Shown here: one piece after another, positions 16,547 through 27,485 of the stretch
How the letters are laid out: each line of letters opens with the position of its first letter
How positions within the stretch are numbered: the first letter of the stretch is position 1
Assembly (NCBI RefSeq): GCF_016772315.1
Contig: NZ_CP053482.1
Location: forward strand, 1,922,001 to 1,986,000
Source: Thiothrix subterranea
Lineage (GTDB): Bacteria; Pseudomonadota; Gammaproteobacteria; Thiotrichales; Thiotrichaceae
Reading direction: 5' to 3'
DNA length: 64,000 nucleotides
The notes under the pieces: generated by a model
What the model was told of the DNA's origin: nothing
What the model saw: only the letters and a program-made list of their open reading frames with translations
Database searches by the model: none
Translations under genes and position numbers: made by a program

Positions 16547-16701
16547 GTCGAACTCTCGTTTTCAGTCTCAAAAAGTGCCGATCAGTTTAGCATAATTGCG
16601 GAAAGTTTCAGACTTCCAGCAGAAAAATGGACGGGTGGCGCTATTCCGCGCTGCTGGCTTTCTGCGCTACTATCCTCGCTTTCGATTCTGGGCTTATTCG
16701 C

Positions 16702-19425
16702 ATGGCAGCACTTTCCAACCGCAAGACTATCCGTGGCAACGCGCTGGCGTTCGTCAAAGAATGGGGCAATGAAACGCGGGAGGAAGCCGAAGCCAAGTCC
16801 TTTTGGGATGCGTTTTTTGCCATTTTCGGGGTCAATCGTAAAAGTGTCGCGGCGTTTGAACATGCCGTCGAGCGCACCGATAACACCAAAGGCTTTATTG
16901 ACCTGTTTTGGAAAGGCGTGTTGCTGGTTGAACACAAATCACGCGGTAAATCCCTCGATAAAGCCAAGTCGCAAGCCTTTGATTATTTCCAGCAGATAAA
17001 AGACCAGCGCGACCGCCCACGCTACGTGTTGTTGTCGGATTTTGCTCGCTTCAAATTGTATGACCTTGATCGGCGTTTGGAGCATGACATTGCCATTGAG
17101 GACTTGCCGGACAAGATCGAGTTTTTCGATTTCATGGCGGGGTTGGAGAATCACGGGGAAAGCATTCAGGAATACGCGCTGAATATTAAGGCGGCGGAAC
17201 GCTTGGGCAAGCTGCACGATGCGCTACAGGATGCGGGTTGTGCGGGGCATGAGCTGGAAGTGTTTTTGGTGCGTATTTTGTTCTGTTTGTTTGCGGAAGA
17301 TACAGGGATTTTTTCCCGCCACCAGTTCTACAACTACCTCGAACATTTTACTGCGCCAGACGGTTCTGACACCGATTCACGCCTAAACAAGCTGTTTCAA
17401 ACCTTGGATAAGCCGGTGCAGGCGCGGGGCAAGCATTTGCTGGCAGAGTTGAACGATTTTCCTTATGTGAACGGTCATTTGTTCGGTGAAAAGCTGGATT
17501 TGCCGTCGTTTGATGCGGAGATGCGCGAGGCTTTGCTGGATTGTTCGCATTTTGATTGGGGCAGTATTTCACCTGCGATTTTTGGTTCGTTGTTTCAGTC
17601 GGTGATGGATAAGGCGGCAAGGCGTGAATTGGGCGCACATTACACCAGCGAAACGCACATTTTGCGCTTGATTAAGCCGTTGTTTTTGGATGCATTGTGG
17701 GCGGAATTCAGCGCGATTCAACAGGGTGGCAATCGTGACAAGCGTAAGAAGTTGGCGGCGTTTCAGCAGCGTTTGACGGCGTTGCAGTTCCTTGATCCGG
17801 CGTGTGGGTGCGGTAACTTTCTGATCATTACCTACCGCGAATTGCGTTTGTTGGAATTGGCGGTGTTGCAGGCGCAGCACGGTGATGCGCATCGGGGGTT
17901 GGATATTACGGTCGAGCCGACGATTAAGCTGGAGCATTTCCACGGCATTGAGGTTGAGGAATGGCCGGTGCGGATTGCGGAAGTGGCGATGTGGCTGACG
18001 CAGCATCAGATGAACCGCGAATTTGCGCGTCAGTTTGGGCGCGAACCGGATTTGCTGCCGTTGAAATCCTCAGCGCATATTGTGATTGGCAATTCGCTGC
18101 AACTCGATTGGGCGGCGGTTGTTAAGCCTGCCAACCTGAATCACATCATCGGCAATCCGCCTTTTGTGGGTAAAAATTTCCGTGGTGAGGCGCAAAATGC
18201 CGATATGGATAAGCTGTTTGGCGCGTTGAAAAACTATAAAAGTTTGGATTACGTGACTTGCTGGTTTTACAAAGCGGCGCAGTTCATACGCGGAACACGT
18301 ATCACAGCGGCGTTTGTTTCCACCAATTCGATTACGCAAGGCGAACAGATTGCACCGTTATGGCAACCGCTGCTGGATATGGGTATCCGTCTGCATTTTG
18401 CACACCGTACCTTTTCGTGGGATTCTGAAGCACGCGGCAAAGCGGCGGTACATGTGGTGATCGTGGGGTTTGCCAACTTTGATACTGAGGGCAAACGCAT
18501 TTTCGACTACCCCAATATCAAGGGCGAACCTGTCGAAATTGCTGCCAATAATATTAATCCCTATCTGATCGACGCACCCAATATAGTGGTTGATAATCGG
18601 ACAAAACCGCTGTGTAACGTGTCTGAAGTTGTGTACGGTAATAAGCCTGTGGATGGTGGATTTTTGTTGCTATCGCCTGATGAAAAAACCGCGCTATTGG
18701 CAAAAGAACCCCTTGCTGCAAAATGGTTAAAACCGCTGCTTGGTGCGGAAGAATTCATTAACGGCAAGGAGCGTTGGTGTTTGTGGTTAGTCGGTATTCA
18801 GCCTAATGAATTGCGTGCCTTGCCAGAAGTCATGAAGCGTGTTGCTCAAGTTAAAGAAATGAGGTTAAACAGCATAGATGCTGGTGCGAGAAAATTAGCT
18901 GAGTGTCCAACACAGTTTCGTGACACAAAAAATCCATCCAGCTATGTACTGATTCCAAGGGTGTCATCAGAGCGTCGTGAGTATGTACCAATGGGATTTT
19001 TTGACCAAAATACCATTTCTACCGACCTTAATAATATGATTCCTAATGCAACACTCTATGAGTTTGGTGTGCTGGAAGCCAAAATGAACATGGTTTGGAT
19101 GAGCGCCGTTTGTGGACGTTTGGAAAGCCGTTACCGCTATTCTGCCAAGCTGGTTTACAACAATTTTCCGTGGCCTGATGCCGACGACAAGCAGCGCAAG
19201 AAGGTGGAAGTCGCCGCGCAAGCGGTGCTGGATGCGCGGAAGAATTACCCGACCTCAACCTTGGCGGATATGTACGACCCGACTTCCATGCCGCCGGATT
19301 TGCGCAAAGCCCATACCGCATTGGATAAAGCGGTGGATCAGTGTTACCGCAAGGAAAAATTCAGCAGTGATATGGAACGGCTGACGTGGTTGTTTGAGCG
19401 GTATCGGGGGTTGGTGGGTGGTTGA
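16702..19425 (+). CDS. MmeI-like type IIL restriction-methylation enzyme
   Basis: I prefer the ATG at 16702, which gives 907 residues (MmeI has 919); the frame is open back to 16627 but that stretch is unlike the family. An N-terminal PD-(D/E)xK nuclease shows D67...E77-x-K79, with the same spacing as MmeI D70/E80/K82. A helical spacer follows, then the N6-adenine methyltransferase with motif I DPACGCGNFL near 364 and motif IV NPPF near 485, and a C-terminal target-recognition region. Such enzymes cut and methylate from one chain and need no separate methylase. None is nearby. Recognition sequence unknown. Confidence 0.88.
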   Translation: MAALSNRKTIRGNALAFVKEWGNETREEAEAKSFWDAFFAIFGVNRKSVAAFEHAVERTDNTKGFIDLFWKGVLLVEHKSRGKSLDKAKSQAFDYFQQIKDQRDRPRYVLLSDFARFKLYDLDRRLEHDIAIEDLPDKIEFFDFMAGLENHGESIQEYALNIKAAERLGKLHDALQDAGCAGHELEVFLVRILFCLFAEDTGIFSRHQFYNYLEHFTAPDGSDTDSRLNKLFQTLDKPVQARGKHLLAELNDFPYVNGHLFGEKLDLPSFDAEMREALLDCSHFDWGSISPAIFGSLFQSVMDKAARRELGAHYTSETHILRLIKPLFLDALWAEFSAIQQGGNRDKRKKLAAFQQRLTALQFLDPACGCGNFLIITYRELRLLELAVLQAQHGDAHRGLDITVEPTIKLEHFHGIEVEEWPVRIAEVAMWLTQHQMNREFARQFGREPDLLPLKSSAHIVIGNSLQLDWAAVVKPANLNHIIGNPPFVGKNFRGEAQNADMDKLFGALKNYKSLDYVTCWFYKAAQFIRGTRITAAFVSTNSITQGEQIAPLWQPLLDMGIRLHFAHRTFSWDSEARGKAAVHVVIVGFANFDTEGKRIFDYPNIKGEPVEIAANNINPYLIDAPNIVVDNRTKPLCNVSEVVYGNKPVDGGFLLLSPDEKTALLAKEPLAAKWLKPLLGAEEFINGKERWCLWLVGIQPNELRALPEVMKRVAQVKEMRLNSIDAGARKLAECPTQFRDTKNPSSYVLIPRVSSERREYVPMGFFDQNTISTDLNNMIPNATLYEFGVLEAKMNMVWMSAVCGRLESRYRYSAKLVYNNFPWPDADDKQRKKVEVAAQAVLDARKNYPTSTLADMYDPTSMPPDLRKAHTALDKAVDQCYRKEKFSSDMERLTWLFERYRGLVGG

Positions 19426-19459: not shown

Positions 19460-19498
19460 AAGAAACCCCTCCCAACCTCCCCTTATCAGGGGAGGAGC
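19460..19498. repeat. 39-bp repeat, left arm framing the DUF559 gene
   Basis: This arm is the exact reverse complement of 19948-19986. It contains the hairpin CCTCCCCT-TATC-AGGGGAGG (19476-19495) preceded by CCCCTCCCAA. A third, interrupted copy lies at 26825-26889. Confidence 0.9.
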
Positions 19499-19559
19499 AA
19501 GAATGGATGCCTTTGAGCGGTTTGATTTGAGCCTAATGGCGTTCTTTTGCTAACGTTAA

Positions 19560-19994
19560 ATGATGAAAAGTCGCTGTTATCAACCCTATCATGACAACCT
19601 TGTTGCATTAGCACGGGTTAACCGGAAAAACCCGACGCCTGCTGAATACAAAATGTGGTCAGAGATTCTGCGCCGTAGACAATTGACAGGTTTTAAATGT
19701 TTGCGTCAGAAGCCTATTGACGGTTATATCGTTGATTTCTACTGTGCAGTATTAGCTTTAGTCATTGAAATTGATGGCGATAGTCACACTGATAAAATGG
19801 AATACGATACAGAACGTACCCGCATCCTCAACGCTTATGATTTACAGATCATCCGTTACACCAACGATGAAGTCCTTGGCAATCCACAGGGAGTTTATCT
19901 ACACCTCATAGAACAAATCCTCGCCAGATTGGAGGTGCTGTCTCTTAGCTCCTCCCCTGATAAGGGGAGGTTGGGAGGGGTTTCTTCTGCGTAA
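19560..19994 (+). CDS. DUF559 endonuclease-like protein within an inverted-repeat cassette
   Basis: The 144-residue protein carries the DUF559 core, a very-short-patch-repair-like nuclease fold: PTPAEYKMWSEILRRRQL, FKCLRQKPIDGYIVDFYC, and EIDGDSHTDKMEYD, with the acidic residues D and E of the putative active site. It has no demonstrated function in most genomes. The gene lies between two perfect 39-bp inverted repeats, and the right arm encodes its last residues (SSSPDKGRLGGVSS). The whole unit spans 19460-19986. The arrangement suggests the nuclease and the repeat belong together, perhaps as a small selfish or repeat-spreading unit; that is inference. Confidence 0.85.
   Translation: MMKSRCYQPYHDNLVALARVNRKNPTPAEYKMWSEILRRRQLTGFKCLRQKPIDGYIVDFYCAVLALVIEIDGDSHTDKMEYDTERTRILNAYDLQIIRYTNDEVLGNPQGVYLHLIEQILARLEVLSLSSSPDKGRLGGVSSA
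19948..19986. repeat. 39-bp repeat, right arm framing the DUF559 gene
   Basis: It is the perfect inverse of 19460-19498 and overlaps the 3' end of the DUF559 coding frame, which it extends by SSPDKGRLGGVSS before the stop at 19994. Confidence 0.9.
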
Positions 19995-20201: not shown

Positions 20202-20438
20202 TTGTAATACCACTTATCGCTTAAAATCATGGCTTGATTCTCAAGTAAATCGCCGGATTAAGCAAAAAGACGGATGCTGTCAGGGTTTGAAACAGTTACC
20301 ATAAAATCTATCTAAATCTATTCAAACTTCATCATTTTGGTTATTTTTATAAAGGCGTAGTGCCGTTTATCCGTAAAGGATAGCAGCAAAAGCACGGGAG
20401 GCTAGACAACTATCACGCCATGCCGCATTCTATTTTCC

Positions 20439-21671
20439 ATGATTATCAGCCACAAAATCCGCCTCAACCCGAACAATAAGCAAGCCACGTACTTGGCGAA
20501 AGCCGCCGGTACAGCGCGGTTTGCCTACAACTGGGCGTTAGCGGAATGGCAAACCCAATACGCGGCATGGAAGGAAGACAACACCCAGCCAAAACCCAAC
20601 CAGATGGGCTTGCGCCGCCAATTGAACGCCATCAAACGCGAACAATTCCCGTGGATGCTCGAAGTCACCAAAAACGCCCCACAAATGGCGATTATCCAAC
20701 TCGGAAGCGCGTTCAAAAACTTCTTTGCAGGGCGTGCCAAGTACCCGCAATTCAAAAAGAAAGGCAAAAGCCGCGACAGTTTCACCCTCACCAACGACCA
20801 GTTCAGCCTTAACGGTTGCCGCATCCGCATTCCCAACCTTGGGTTAGTGCGGATGCGGGAAACGTTACGCTTTTCCGGCAAAATCCTCTCTGCCACGGTT
20901 TCCCGCACCGCTGACCAGTGGTTCGCCAGCATCACCGTGGATACCGACCAACATCACCTCCCGCCTGCCGAAAACCAAGGTACGGTGGGGGTGGATTTGG
21001 GTGTATCCGCGCTGGCAACGCTGTCAACGGGGGAAAAAGTGGTCGGGGCGAAGCCGCATAAAGCCTTGCTTTCCCGCCTAAAACGGCTATCCCGCAGCCT
21101 GTCCCGCAAGGTCAAAAGCAGTGCCAACTGCCACAAGGCAAAACAAAAACTGGCAAAACTTCACGCACGTATCGCCAACATCCGCCAAGACAGTTTGCAC
21201 CAACTCACCACGGATTTGACCCGCCGTTTCCACACTATTGGCATCGAAGATTTGAACGTATCGGGCATGGTGAAAAACCGTCATTTATCCCGCGCGATCA
21301 GTGACATGGGGTTTTTCGAGTTTCGGCGGCAACTGGAATACAAAGCCGATATGCGGGGTGCGGTGGTCGTGGTGGCTGATCGGTTTTTTGCTTCGAGCAA
21401 GACGTGTTCTGCTTCTGGCTGTGGGCATAAAGTGGAAAAGCTGCCGCTGTCGGTACGTGAATGGACTTGCTCCGTTTGCGGCGCGATCCATGACCGTGAC
21501 GTAAACGCTGCCAAGAATTTGCAAGAATATGCTTCGGCTACGCTCAGCAACCACGCCGTGAGTTACACGGTGTCTGCCTGTGGAGGGGAAGGCGCTGGTC
21601 TTGAGCGAAAGCCGAAGACGAAACCAGCCCCTGTGAAGCAGGAATTCAACACCATGACTACTTTTAGTTAG
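20439..21671 (+). CDS. tnpB: TnpB RNA-guided endonuclease (IS605 OrfB family)
   Basis: The 410-residue protein has the N-terminal OrfB helix-turn-helix region (ARFAYNWALAEWQ), a RuvC-like nuclease with D186 (GVDLGVSALATL), E270 (IGIEDLNVSGM) and D354 (HDRDVNAAKNL), and a zinc finger (CSASGCG...CSVCG). All three acidic residues are intact, so it may be active. TnpB proteins cut DNA guided by an RNA made from the element's right end and promote element retention. The segment at 21533-21547 carries a dispersed repeat core (TTCGGCTACGCTCAG). Confidence 0.92.
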   Translation: MIISHKIRLNPNNKQATYLAKAAGTARFAYNWALAEWQTQYAAWKEDNTQPKPNQMGLRRQLNAIKREQFPWMLEVTKNAPQMAIIQLGSAFKNFFAGRAKYPQFKKKGKSRDSFTLTNDQFSLNGCRIRIPNLGLVRMRETLRFSGKILSATVSRTADQWFASITVDTDQHHLPPAENQGTVGVDLGVSALATLSTGEKVVGAKPHKALLSRLKRLSRSLSRKVKSSANCHKAKQKLAKLHARIANIRQDSLHQLTTDLTRRFHTIGIEDLNVSGMVKNRHLSRAISDMGFFEFRRQLEYKADMRGAVVVVADRFFASSKTCSASGCGHKVEKLPLSVREWTCSVCGAIHDRDVNAAKNLQEYASATLSNHAVSYTVSACGGEGAGLERKPKTKPAPVKQEFNTMTTFS

Positions 21672-21672
21672 C
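21594..21672 (+). ncRNA. Candidate omega/re-RNA scaffold at the tnpB 3' end
   Basis: The last part of tnpB can fold. GCTGGT (21594-21599) pairs with ACCAGC (21623-21628), or GTCTT (21598-21602) with AAGAC (21615-21619), and CCTG (21630-21633) pairs with CAGG (21639-21642). In this family the guide RNA scaffold overlaps the 3' end of tnpB and its guide lies just beyond the right end. The exact end and guide are not known here. Confidence 0.3.
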
Positions 21673-21749
21673 TATAGGTAGATTTGGGTAGGTTTGAAAT
21701 AACGGATTTTGTACTATTAATCTTATCAATAAAGGAATCGAGTGTTGTC

Positions 21750-24159: not shown

Positions 24160-25034
24160 AACTGGGAACGTGTGTGTATCAACAACAAACGTATGTGTGC
24201 CTAGCAGCAGGCGATACGGTGCTGCTTCCGGCGTTGGATACGGCGTTTGATCAACCCGCGTGGCGCGATATGTTGGCGCTGATTGATAGCGGTATAGACT
24301 TGCAGGCCGTGCGTAACACCTTGACGGCGGCAATGCGCGTGCCATTGGCGGACGTGACCTTGCTGGCACCGATTCCGCGCCCGCGCAAAAACGTGATGTG
24401 TTTGGGGCTGAATTATCTGGAACATGCGCAAGAAACCGCGAACCAAATCGGGCGCACCGGCAAAGCGCCGCAATACCCGATCGTGTTTACCAAATGCCCG
24501 ACCAGCGTGATTGGGCATGAAACCGCTGTGCCGTTTGACCCGGATACTTGCTCACAATTGGATTGGGAAGCGGAATTGGGTGTGGTGCTAGGCAACGGCG
24601 GCAAAAAAATTGCGCGTGAGAATGCCTTGGCGCATGTGTTTGGTTACACCGTGATCAATGATTTGAGTGCGCGGGATATTCAGTTGAATCACAAGCAGTA
24701 TTTCCTCGGCAAAAGCATCGACGGTGGTTGCCCGATGGGGCCCTGGATTGTGACGGCGGATGAGATTGCTGATCCGCAGGCGCTGGCGATTGCGTGTCGG
24801 GTGAATGGGGTGACGAAACAGGCATCGAATACGCGCCAGATGATTTTTGATGTTGCCAGCATTATTGAATGGCTGTCGCGGGGGATGACGCTGGAAGCGG
24901 GGGATGTGATTGCCACGGGTACGCCAAGTGGCGTGGGCTTTGTACGCGAACCCCCGGAGTATTTGCAACCGGGGGATGTGGTGGAATGTGAGGTGGAAGG
25001 CGTGGGCGTGTTGCGCAATACCATTTCAGCCTGA
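24156..25034 (+). CDS. Fumarylacetoacetate hydrolase family protein
   Basis: The 292-residue protein has an N-terminal extension of about 75 residues and the FAH catalytic domain: MCLGLNYLEHAQETA, FTKCPTSVIGHETAV, LDWEAELGVVLGNG (metal-binding Glu), YTVINDLSARDIQ and GDVIATGTPSGVGF. Family members cleave C-C bonds of acylpyruvates or decarboxylate oxaloacetate with Mg2+ or Mn2+. It is translationally coupled to the TSUP exporter and convergent with the Mob/Moe fusion, the two stops overlapping by 9 bp. Confidence 0.9.
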   Translation: MKLGTCVYQQQTYVCLAAGDTVLLPALDTAFDQPAWRDMLALIDSGIDLQAVRNTLTAAMRVPLADVTLLAPIPRPRKNVMCLGLNYLEHAQETANQIGRTGKAPQYPIVFTKCPTSVIGHETAVPFDPDTCSQLDWEAELGVVLGNGGKKIARENALAHVFGYTVINDLSARDIQLNHKQYFLGKSIDGGCPMGPWIVTADEIADPQALAIACRVNGVTKQASNTRQMIFDVASIIEWLSRGMTLEAGDVIATGTPSGVGFVREPPEYLQPGDVVECEVEGVGVLRNTISA

Positions 25035-27485
25035 CCAACCAAACACCTGCACCTGTACCACATCGCCCGGTTCGACCGTGGCGGTTTCTTCCGGCAAGAT
25101 AATCAGGCAGTTACCCTTGCTCATGGAACTCAGCACGCCCGAACCCTGATAGCCCGCCTTGTCCACCACCAGCTTGCCCGCTTCACGCCGGACAATGCCG
25201 CGTTGGAATTCGGTGCGCCCCGGCTGCTTTTTCAGGCGGCTTTGGCAGATGGCGTCCAACAGCAAGGGTTCATACTCGGTTTCACCCGCCAGCTTCAGCA
25301 GCGCGGGTTGCACGAATTGCAGGAATGTCACCATCACCGCCACCGGATTCCCCGGCAAGCCAAAGAACAACGCCTTGCCCAAGGTGCCGAATGCCAGCGG
25401 ACGACCGGGTTTGATGGCGATTTTCCAGAAGTTGATTTGCCCCAGTTTAGCTAAAATGCCTTTGATGTAATCCGCTTCGCCCACCGATACCCCGCCGGAA
25501 GTCAGCACCACATCCGCCGCCGCTGCCGCTTGTTGCAACGCTGTTTCGATACTGGCAGGGTCATCACGCACCACCCCCATATCAAGGATGTCGACATTAA
25601 GCTGTTGCAACATGCCGTATAGCGCGTAACGGTTGCTGTCATAAACCTGCCCTTCCGCCAAGGTTTCGCCGATGGAGCGCAATTCGTCACCTGTTGAGAA
25701 AAACGCCACCCGCAACGGGCGCATCACGCTGACTTCAGCAATTCCCAACGATGCTAATACGGCTAAATCTGCCGGATTCACGCGATGTCCTGCTGGTAAG
25801 ACGGTGCTGCCCTGCGCAATGTCTTCCCCTGCTTGGCGCACGTTTTGTCCGGCGCGATGACCCGTGCCGATACGAATGTAACCCTCTGCCCCAGCTTCGG
25901 TGTGTTCCTGCATCACCACGGTATCCGCACCAGCAGGCATGGATGCACCCGTCATAATACGCACGCATTCACCCTTGCCGCATTCGCCGCTGAAGGCTTG
26001 CCCTGCAAACGCTTTGCCGATCACCCGATAAGCGCGGCTGTCATCCCCCGGCAAATCATCACTGCGCAAGGCATAGCCATCCATCGCCGAATTGACGTGA
26101 TTAGGAACGTTGAGCGGGGAAATGACCGCGTGTGCCAACACCTGCCCCAAGGCATCGCGTAACGGGCGTTTCAGCGCGGGCGCAACCGCTTGCAAGTTTG
26201 CCATAATGCGGCGGCGGGCTTCGGTGATCGACAGACTGCCAGGGTCACGCGCATCGGCACAGCTAGGCGCAGTGCGAATGGTGGCGTTGGTATTAGTGAC
26301 AGGGGCAAGCTGGCGAGTACGCCATTGCAGGATAAACTCGGCAATGCTATCCGGCTGATTCAGATCCAACTTGGTGACATGTGCCGGAACATCCAGCGTC
26401 ATATCATCGGTTGCCAGCGCAATCACATGGCTGTCATTCGGGTACAGCAACGGTTTGCCAACGCTGGGGCGATACACTTCGATTTTGGGAATCGCGGTGT
26501 GCTTAAAGCCTTCCACCAACACCAGATCGGCGCAATCACGGTTGACTAAACGCAACACATCCACCAGTTCCGGTTCGCGCTGGGTTTTGCACTCCTGCAT
26601 CATTGCCATGCGTTTGCGTGATGCCAGCACGACTTGGTCAGCACCGGCTTCACGGAAGCGGTAGCTGTCTTTGCCCGGTGTATCCAATTCCAAATTGTGA
26701 TGCCCGTGTTTGATCACCGTCAGGCTCAGACCGGCAGCTTTCAGGCGCGGAATCAATTCGGTCAGCAAGGTGGTTTTGCCCGTGCCGCTCCAAGCGCATA
26801 CGCCGATTACGGGAAAACCATTAGAAGAAACCCCTCCCAACCGCCCAGCCGCTTCAACGCGGCGCTTCGCCCCCTTATCAGGGGAGGAGGAAGATTGTTC
26901 CAGCTCGGCCTGCTGTTGCGGGGTGTTGATATTGCGGAACATGCGGCGGCAATCGGAAAAATCGACGCTTGCCATGCGGTGCTGCGCGTACCACAAGTCA
27001 ATCTTACGGTCGCCATTGGCAAGGAAGGCTTGCAGGCTGGGCAATAAACTCACCGGCAATAGCGCGTGAACCGGTTGCAAGCGTTCACCATCGTGCGCCA
27101 CGGCGATTTCTGCCTGCTCACGTTGCAAGGCTGCCAACAAACGGGCGGCGGTATCCGCTGCCAATTCCGGCGCATCACAGGGAATGGTGAGGATGTAATC
27201 CGTTTGTGCCGCTTGCATCGCCGCTGCAAATCCCGCCAACGGCCCTTGATAGTCACTCAGATCATCACTGATCACTGGATAGTGGTATTGCTGGTAACGT
27301 GCCTGATTGCGGTTGGCATTGATCAGAATAGCATCGACCTGTGGCTGTAAGGCTTCCAGCAGGTATTCGACCAAGGGGCGACCGTGCAATTCGAGCAAGC
27401 CCTTGTCCTGCCCACCCATGCGGCTACCTCTGCCACCTGCCAGAATAACGCCGGTAATCCGGGGAGTGCTATGCGCTTGCGTCAT
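25026..27485 (-). CDS. MobA-MobB-MoeA triple fusion, molybdenum/tungsten cofactor synthesis
   Basis: One 819-residue frame joins three enzymes. Residues about 1-197 are MobA guanylyltransferase (VILAGGRGSRMGGQDKGLL). About 225-395 is MobB, a GTP-binding adapter (CAWSGTGKTTLLTELIPRL; VLVEGFKH). About 415-819 is MoeA molybdopterin molybdenumtransferase (NSAMDGYALR, IMTGASMPAGADTVVMQEH, TSGGVSVGEADYIKG, FGLPGNPVAVMVTF). Together they insert the metal and attach GMP. The MobA-MobB linker (residues about 198-220) is built from a copy of the dispersed repeat seen around the DUF559 gene. It is the last gene of tupA-tupB-tupC, coupled to tupC by ATGA. Confidence 0.93.
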   Translation of the reverse strand: MTQAHSTPRITGVILAGGRGSRMGGQDKGLLELHGRPLVEYLLEALQPQVDAILINANRNQARYQQYHYPVISDDLSDYQGPLAGFAAAMQAAQTDYILTIPCDAPELAADTAARLLAALQREQAEIAVAHDGERLQPVHALLPVSLLPSLQAFLANGDRKIDLWYAQHRMASVDFSDCRRMFRNINTPQQQAELEQSSSSPDKGAKRRVEAAGRLGGVSSNGFPVIGVCAWSGTGKTTLLTELIPRLKAAGLSLTVIKHGHHNLELDTPGKDSYRFREAGADQVVLASRKRMAMMQECKTQREPELVDVLRLVNRDCADLVLVEGFKHTAIPKIEVYRPSVGKPLLYPNDSHVIALATDDMTLDVPAHVTKLDLNQPDSIAEFILQWRTRQLAPVTNTNATIRTAPSCADARDPGSLSITEARRRIMANLQAVAPALKRPLRDALGQVLAHAVISPLNVPNHVNSAMDGYALRSDDLPGDDSRAYRVIGKAFAGQAFSGECGKGECVRIMTGASMPAGADTVVMQEHTEAGAEGYIRIGTGHRAGQNVRQAGEDIAQGSTVLPAGHRVNPADLAVLASLGIAEVSVMRPLRVAFFSTGDELRSIGETLAEGQVYDSNRYALYGMLQQLNVDILDMGVVRDDPASIETALQQAAAAADVVLTSGGVSVGEADYIKGILAKLGQINFWKIAIKPGRPLAFGTLGKALFFGLPGNPVAVMVTFLQFVQPALLKLAGETEYEPLLLDAICQSRLKKQPGRTEFQRGIVRREAGKLVVDKAGYQGSGVLSSMSKGNCLIILPEETATVEPGDVVQVQVFGWSG
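26825..26889. repeat. Third copy of the GC palindromic repeat, in frame inside the Mob/Moe fusion
   Basis: Positions 26825-26842 and 26871-26889 match the two halves of the 39-bp DUF559-flanking repeat. In place of one T, 28 bases are inserted that form a hairpin of their own (GCCGC-TTCAAC-GCGGC). The net change of 27 bases keeps the reading frame. The encoded linker reads SSSSPDKG-AKRRVEAAG-RLGGVSS. Confidence 0.85.

Follow-up and report, generated by a model that had tools for sequence, protein, structure and literature searches.

A DUF559 gene between inverted repeat arms

Can a dispersed palindromic repeat be spread by a nuclease encoded between its own inverted copies, in place of a transposase? 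The question is raised by a 0.5-kb element of Thiothrix subterranea, located in the 64,000-nucleotide stretch of NZ_CP053482.1 (positions 1,922,001 to 1,986,000) that was analysed here and is called the window; coordinates below are counted from its first letter. In this element a gene of the DUF559 family is flanked by two inverted arms, and a preliminary description had likened it to a RAYT/REP system with a Vsr-like nuclease. We give an about even chance to the view that it is a REP/RAYT-like repeat-spreading unit in which a homing-endonuclease-type nuclease replaces the transposase.

The arms (19460-19498 on the forward strand and 19948-19986 on the reverse strand) are 39 nt each, 100% complementary and separated by 449 nt. 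Two inverted pairs of at least 20 nt were found in 18.5-28.5 kb, an interval without any Rfam match, and this one alone is perfect. The left arm consists of a tip (AAGAAACCCCTCCCAA) and a hairpin (CCTCCCCT-TATC-AGGGGAGG). The right arm is its exact reverse complement and encodes the C-terminus of the nuclease, whose 144-aa open reading frame (ORF; 19560-19994, forward strand; Pfam PF04480, E 4.5e-29) spans it. Both arms contain CCTCCCCTTATCAGGGGAGG, the hairpin core of the repeat family named F1, at 19476-19495 (forward strand) and 19951-19970 (reverse strand). Its predicted fold is an 8-bp hairpin, which together with the tip makes up a single arm. The exact complementarity, the hairpin in each arm and the coding role of the right arm had been pointed out in the preliminary description, and all of them hold.

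Genome-wide, the hairpin has matches at 19 separate places (at most two mismatches, both arms of the unit counted) versus none for a control with the reversed pattern, confirming that the repeat is dispersed. Arm-spacer-arm pairs are present among these copies (L004, L009 and L011). The solo F1 copy reported inside another gene (26825-26897, forward strand) does lie in frame within an 819-aa ORF (25026-27485, reverse strand), but it is imperfect, with its tip at 26825-26846, its hairpin at 26868-26887 and an extra small hairpin between them. That ORF is a fusion of MobA, MobB and MoeA, and the repeat is found at the MobA/MobB junction. The genome harbors two DUF559 genes in total, the second of which (L020) has its own inverted arms, different from those of the window; aligned with each other over 131 columns, they show 116 identities. 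Framing is therefore a property of the gene and not of a single repeat.

The window protein retains the conserved residues E29, D59, E70, D72 and H76, and its predicted fold is nearest to 3hrl, the catalytic domain of I-Bth0305I and Vsr; fold and residue set together place it among the EDxHD/PD-(D/E)XK nucleases. A Pfam search of the framed gene gave DUF559, a weak match to MTES_1575 and nothing else, hence no HUH Y1 tyrosine transposase. It was not matched by the vsr profile (TIGR00632, NCBIfam, E 0.01) and falls outside the Vsr family by this measure; the second DUF559 protein of the genome scored 22.1 against this profile, with a cut-off of 97.85. Only very weak matches to the window nuclease were returned by PADLOC.

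Framing of DUF559 genes across bacteria

To score framing, the 400 nt preceding the domain were aligned locally with the reverse complement of the 400 nt that follow, and the best match was taken, with a threshold (above 16) fixed from the highest shifted control (16.0, 57 windows). In relatives, 29 of 51 DUF559 loci exceed the threshold, a set that includes fragments, contig-edge loci, large fusions and one locus of unsure position (L024); the maximum over 96 shifted windows is 13.5. Across Pseudomonadota, where the best DUF559 gene was taken from each of the 61 positive genomes except the window's own, inverted arms are present at 42 of 60 genes, as opposed to 0 of 30 Vsr loci from a longer list; the Vsr windows extend less far past the gene than the DUF559 windows because the Vsr profile is shorter than the gene. 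Moreover, a triplex-type motif lies within 350 nt of 43 of the 60 DUF559 genes and of 0 of the 30 Vsr genes. The 57 shifted windows belong to this sample, and none is above the threshold (maximum 16.0). Among the loci obtained after the threshold was fixed, 24 of 31 score above 16.

Framing extends well beyond this phylum. In a GTDB sample covering Chloroflexi, Planctomycetota, Spirochaetes, cyanobacteria, Bacteroidota, candidate phyla and others, 58 of 78 DUF559 loci are framed by inverted or direct repeats; these are the best 80 of at least 559 confirmed loci, less L305, which was too short, and L284, whose match was a run of N (59/79 with L284 included). The corresponding shifted controls gave 2/143 for inverted and 6/143 for direct repeats. 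The frames are mostly C/G-rich hairpins of the BoxC-like kind, with a few of another kind, for example in L291. The framing copies of a gonococcal DUF559 gene are direct repeats (L253, from Neisseria gonorrhoeae; the 2.17-Mb record is filed as a plasmid and resembles a chromosome). The expectation that DUF559 genes would always be framed is borne out by both genes of the window's genome; in the wider samples framing is usual, not invariable.

The domain is also found inside other genes. In six Bacteroidota loci (L309, L327, L337, L341, L345 and L351) it is inserted in frame within one MetH open frame, at the same linker each time, and the Pfam order B12-binding_2, DUF559, B12-binding was confirmed in the three that were scanned (L309, L351 and L337). 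DUF559 is likewise present within HsdM (L085) and within a DUF1156 methylase frame (L035). It was also observed at a different MetH site in L356 and in another enzyme gene in L358.

Relation to the BoxC/PIT/intrastrand-triplex repeats

Most arms share the three-block layout of the BoxC/PIT/intrastrand-triplex repeats, a class of repeats that is already known. On one strand the arm reads CCTCCCC-TGATA-AGGGGAGG-TT-GGGAGGGG, which supplies a pyrimidine (Y) stem, a purine (R) stem, a short loop and a mirror R block; the strand opposite the left arm presents this triplex-type order, with TT before the mirror purine block GGGAGGGG. The consensus of the Escherichia coli repeat TMECO is 5'-CCCTCNCCC-N3-6-GGGNGAGGG-N3-GGGNGAGGG[GTC-]-3' in Holder et al. 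(2015, PMC4666352). The letters of the F1 arm (CCTCCCC...) differ from this consensus (CCCTCNCCC...), and F1 is not TMECO by its letters. When the gaps are allowed to be slightly wider, a TMECO-type pattern has 32 further matches in the window's genome. In the arms of L017, L019, L086, L109, L110 and L120 an extra hairpin separates the stem from the mirror purine block, and the three-block layout is otherwise kept.

A tie between the repeat and genomes with DUF559, whose absence would have counted against the preliminary description, was recovered at the level of the repeat class. Of 61 genomes with a DUF559 gene (a match at E 1e-15 or better), 39 have a strict form of the motif, versus 13 of the 188 that lack the gene (Fisher p 5.5e-19); counted by genus, the figures are 27/40 versus 7/92 (p 2.7e-12). 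At least five matches are present in 33 of the 39, and the unit's own arms are therefore insufficient to account for them. In E. coli K-12, for which 23 motifs are counted in PMC4666352, the DUF559 gene is ycjD, between fabI and sapF. On its 3' side a BoxC lies about 170 nt past the gene end and a BoxC-like remnant overlaps the gene end; on the 5' side, the short stretch covered shows none, and scoring detected no inverted frame. The same paper leaves the spread of these repeats unexplained, and its main text contains neither 'ycjD' nor 'nuclease'. With a gene partner, the question of how they spread becomes testable in E. coli K-12, which has both ycjD and the motifs.

Nuclease subfamilies and arm families

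Within the genus, the nuclease subfamily is matched to the arm family, and arm sequences differ between subfamilies. Among 26 framed units from its members, arm similarity rises with protein identity (rho 0.77, reached in 0 of 1000 permutations); the correlation tests as a whole drew on 129 framed units, all without a stop in the domain, and in the wide sample the correlation is modest (rho 0.20, 6/1000). On the nuclease tree the arm families (six labels) need 6 changes, against a mean of 14.1 after shuffling and 0 of 200 shuffles as low, with one change each for F1, F2 and F3; 3 of the 23 inner branches of this tree are well supported, and near-copies favour such clustering. Eight of the 11 F2 units have no detectable flank in common with a unit of the same family and three share one; over F1-F5, 14 of 23 units lack such a flank. 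A 70%-identical F1 unit in the genome G008 is found at an unrelated site, with flanks unlike those of the window. The copy number of F3 weakly tracks its cognate gene (p 0.034).

Gene-less repeat pairs between species

The close sister genome G009 is about 97% identical around the site of the window, which both genomes have, and it holds 54 F1 matches versus 15 in the window's genome (G000). Sixteen of its arm-spacer-arm pairs were measured, at 97-106 bp; they were chosen among 30 loci, leaving out L204, L196, the unit itself and the single-arm loci. At least six G009 copies are common to G000. One is L204, shared because its flanks match those of the G000 pair L004, and at least five are single-arm loci with a G000 counterpart (L194/L011, L200/L012, L208/L005, L213/L006 and L214/L014). 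For 13 of the 16 pairs a matching stretch of G000 was aligned, and F1 was not seen there; L201 and L209 match through one flank or across a 2-kb gap, and L191, L202 and L218 have no paired ortholog. When 13 pairs were searched in the genus, at least eight sites had one or more congeners matching across the joined flanks in one stretch, with lengths from 3 nt below to 35 nt above that of the query, and the flank-crossing match at L209 and at L217 was found in at least nine congeners each. The presence/absence that had been predicted between strains is thus recovered as repeat sites that vary between related species. It lacks base-level precision and concerns gene-less repeats, no full unit having been caught. 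No target duplication was seen by eye at the 16 pairs, the species compared being diverged.

Different families can occupy one site. At L211, inside a 623-aa open frame, the repeats are F1, F2, F4 or F5 depending on the species, and two species have no repeat. The distance between the flanks is a multiple of three in all ten cases, two of which have weak flank matches. At L206, a terminator-like hairpin is present in five species and pairs of several families in six others. Gene-less pairs are often situated in frame within an open frame; of the 16 pairs measured in G009, nine are inside long open frames, which are open frames and not proven genes.

Other features were noted around these sites. 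In the window, a TnpB (IS605 OrfB) gene lies at 20439-21671, just after the DUF559 unit, and the interval 20289-21703 is missing from the otherwise about 97% identical G009 site. At L201 of G009, the end of an IS605-type TnpB element adjoins the repeat tip. CRISPR-like repeats with a spacing of about 70 bp (G000:C1:1256131-1260018 and 1268814-1269404) have a match in the left flank of one G009 repeat pair.

A possible mechanism and its alternatives

In a REP/RAYT-like unit driven by a nuclease, the 0.5-kb stretch would be a complete, self-encoding member of its repeat family, with the DUF559 gene between an arm and its inverted copy, and the scattered arm-spacer-arm pairs of about 100 bp and the single arms would be its gene-less derivatives. 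The arms can fold as hairpins, and they possess the mirror purine block known from intrastrand-triplex motifs. The nuclease, of the PD-(D/E)XK/EDxHD fold, would recognise its cognate arm, either by sequence or in folded form, and nick or cut beside it. Host repair or recombination would then copy the whole unit, or a pair lacking the gene, into sites that may be new or may be occupied already. Such copying by repair after a cut would fit the enzyme class, the lack of any visible target duplication and the presence of different families at one site. In favour of this view speak the framing, seen in many phyla and rare or missing in the controls, the link of motif and gene across genomes, the agreement of nuclease subfamily and arm family within the genus, the F1 unit at an unrelated site in G008, the excess of F1 matches in G009 with its variable pairs, the two sites holding different families and the predicted fold, near that of a homing endonuclease. 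From sequence we infer that the arm is cut by the nuclease, that the spread is driven by this cutting and that insertion is done by repair. In a broader form, which we put forward tentatively and hold to be somewhat doubtful, DUF559 nucleases would be the missing mobilisers of the BoxC/PIT/intrastrand-triplex superfamily over most phyla, without a transposase, by reading a fold (possibly the triplex) and spreading through repair, with in-frame entry into genes as gene-less pairs or as a whole domain (MetH, HsdM).

Several observations weigh against the REP/RAYT-like unit. The evidence is comparative throughout, cleavage or transposition having not been seen, and the units were located via DUF559 only. 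Framing is missing in 18/60 and 20/78 DUF559 loci, and some frames are not BoxC-like, as with the long arms of L291. The strict motif is present in the 13 of 188 genomes lacking DUF559, with tens of copies in some; REPs without a RAYT are also known (PMC3733652). Four of the five F3 units and two of the three F1 units share a site, and the clustering of arm families is therefore partly plain descent. In the phylum sample the correlation of arm and protein is not significant (rho 0.11, 93/1000). Empty and filled junctions differ by small indels without a clean target duplication, from which the chemistry of insertion cannot be read off. Finally, the full nuclease-carrying unit was never caught present and absent at one site: the flanks of the L020 unit were not found in 320 kb of G009 chosen by a synteny guess, and the host gene of the L035 unit had no match in the other 15 congeners. 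The likeness to RAYT/REP systems with a Vsr-like nuclease proposed at the outset broadly survives the checks named there. The copy number of F1, the family of the window, is unlinked to its cognate nuclease gene (p 0.70).

The main alternative is a DUF559 homing endonuclease that parasitises independently spreading repeats, its gene being copied between the arms of cut pairs. We regard it as unlikely, although it deserves more weight than the others: alone, it leaves unexplained the association of gene and repeats across genomes and the way in which each nuclease subfamily and its arm family travel together between sites. The latter match of subfamily and arm also points to the nuclease itself, and not to another enzyme (a RAYT, another HUH enzyme or an insertion sequence (IS)) that would move the repeats with DUF559 as cargo. 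That the nuclease is such cargo appears improbable to us, on a weak test in which HUH genes and other partners were not searched for. The REP-like layout and the lack of target duplication speak for it, HUH elements being known to insert without target duplication, as do the IS605-type TnpB element beside the repeat tip at L201 and, in PMC12308824, a DUF559 gene of Legionella pneumophila that accompanies a transposase in repeated segments, which are hotspots of recombination.

We assign a similarly low probability to an ordinary Vsr-like nuclease, linked to repair or restriction, whose genes merely tend to adjoin repeats. It would be in line with VsrA of Caulobacter, a DUF559 protein functionally linked to a cytosine methyltransferase (PMC12907096). 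In the window, the DUF559 gene follows an MmeI-type IIG restriction-methylation gene (16627-19425, forward strand), a neighbour outside the unit. MmeI enzymes methylate adenine, however, and would leave no 5-methylcytosine damage to mend; moreover, none of the Vsr loci is framed (0/30), and the homologous unit of G008 has other flanks. VsrA may still serve as a model for the whole family, but it leaves the repeats unexplained. Lastly, common hairpins with a small gene landing between two of them by accident have a negligible probability: the shifted controls (0/96, 0/57 and 2/143) refute this, and chance pairing was ruled out by the shifted windows together with the Vsr loci.

Comparison with known systems

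The REP/RAYT-like unit proposed here would assign a role to a widespread domain of unknown function. Alongside REP/RAYT it would be a second, nuclease-driven source of unstable genomes and of insertions that keep the reading frame of proteins. In Di Nocera et al. (2013, PMC3733652), REPtrons are likewise made of dispersed palindromes with a gene between inverted copies, repeat-specific gene types, solo pairs and copies inside genes; both DUF559 genes of the window's genome are single genes framed by inverted dispersed palindromes. The window gene differs from a RAYT in encoding a PD-(D/E)XK/EDxHD nuclease and not an HUH tyrosine transposase, and the GTAG tag is not found at the ends of the window arms (AAGAAACCCC and GGAGGAGC). 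Unlike the EDxHD homing endonucleases (I-Bth0305I, 3r3p) and Vsr, the window unit is framed by repeats, and no intron or intein was seen. The gene-less pairs of about 100 bp resemble the ends of a longer unit, as in miniature inverted-repeat transposable elements, but no target duplication was seen and the unit has no DDE transposase. Rickettsia palindromic elements, compared by description, are also short palindromes lying in frame within genes, and we know of no coding partner for them.

The repeats are also close to the BoxC/PIT/TMECO repeats, which share the Y stem, R stem, short loop and mirror purine block, the inverted pairs and a very wide distribution; they differ in that PMC4666352 reports no mobility gene near the motifs, and in the F1 letters, which deviate from the E. 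coli consensus. The unit had been suggested to be little described; its repeat class is a known one, with arms that differ between nuclease subfamilies. In the literature searched, which excluded bioRxiv and included few subscription journals, no tie between DUF559 and these repeats was found. Known repeats and a known domain would here be joined as a REP/RAYT-like unit with a different enzyme.
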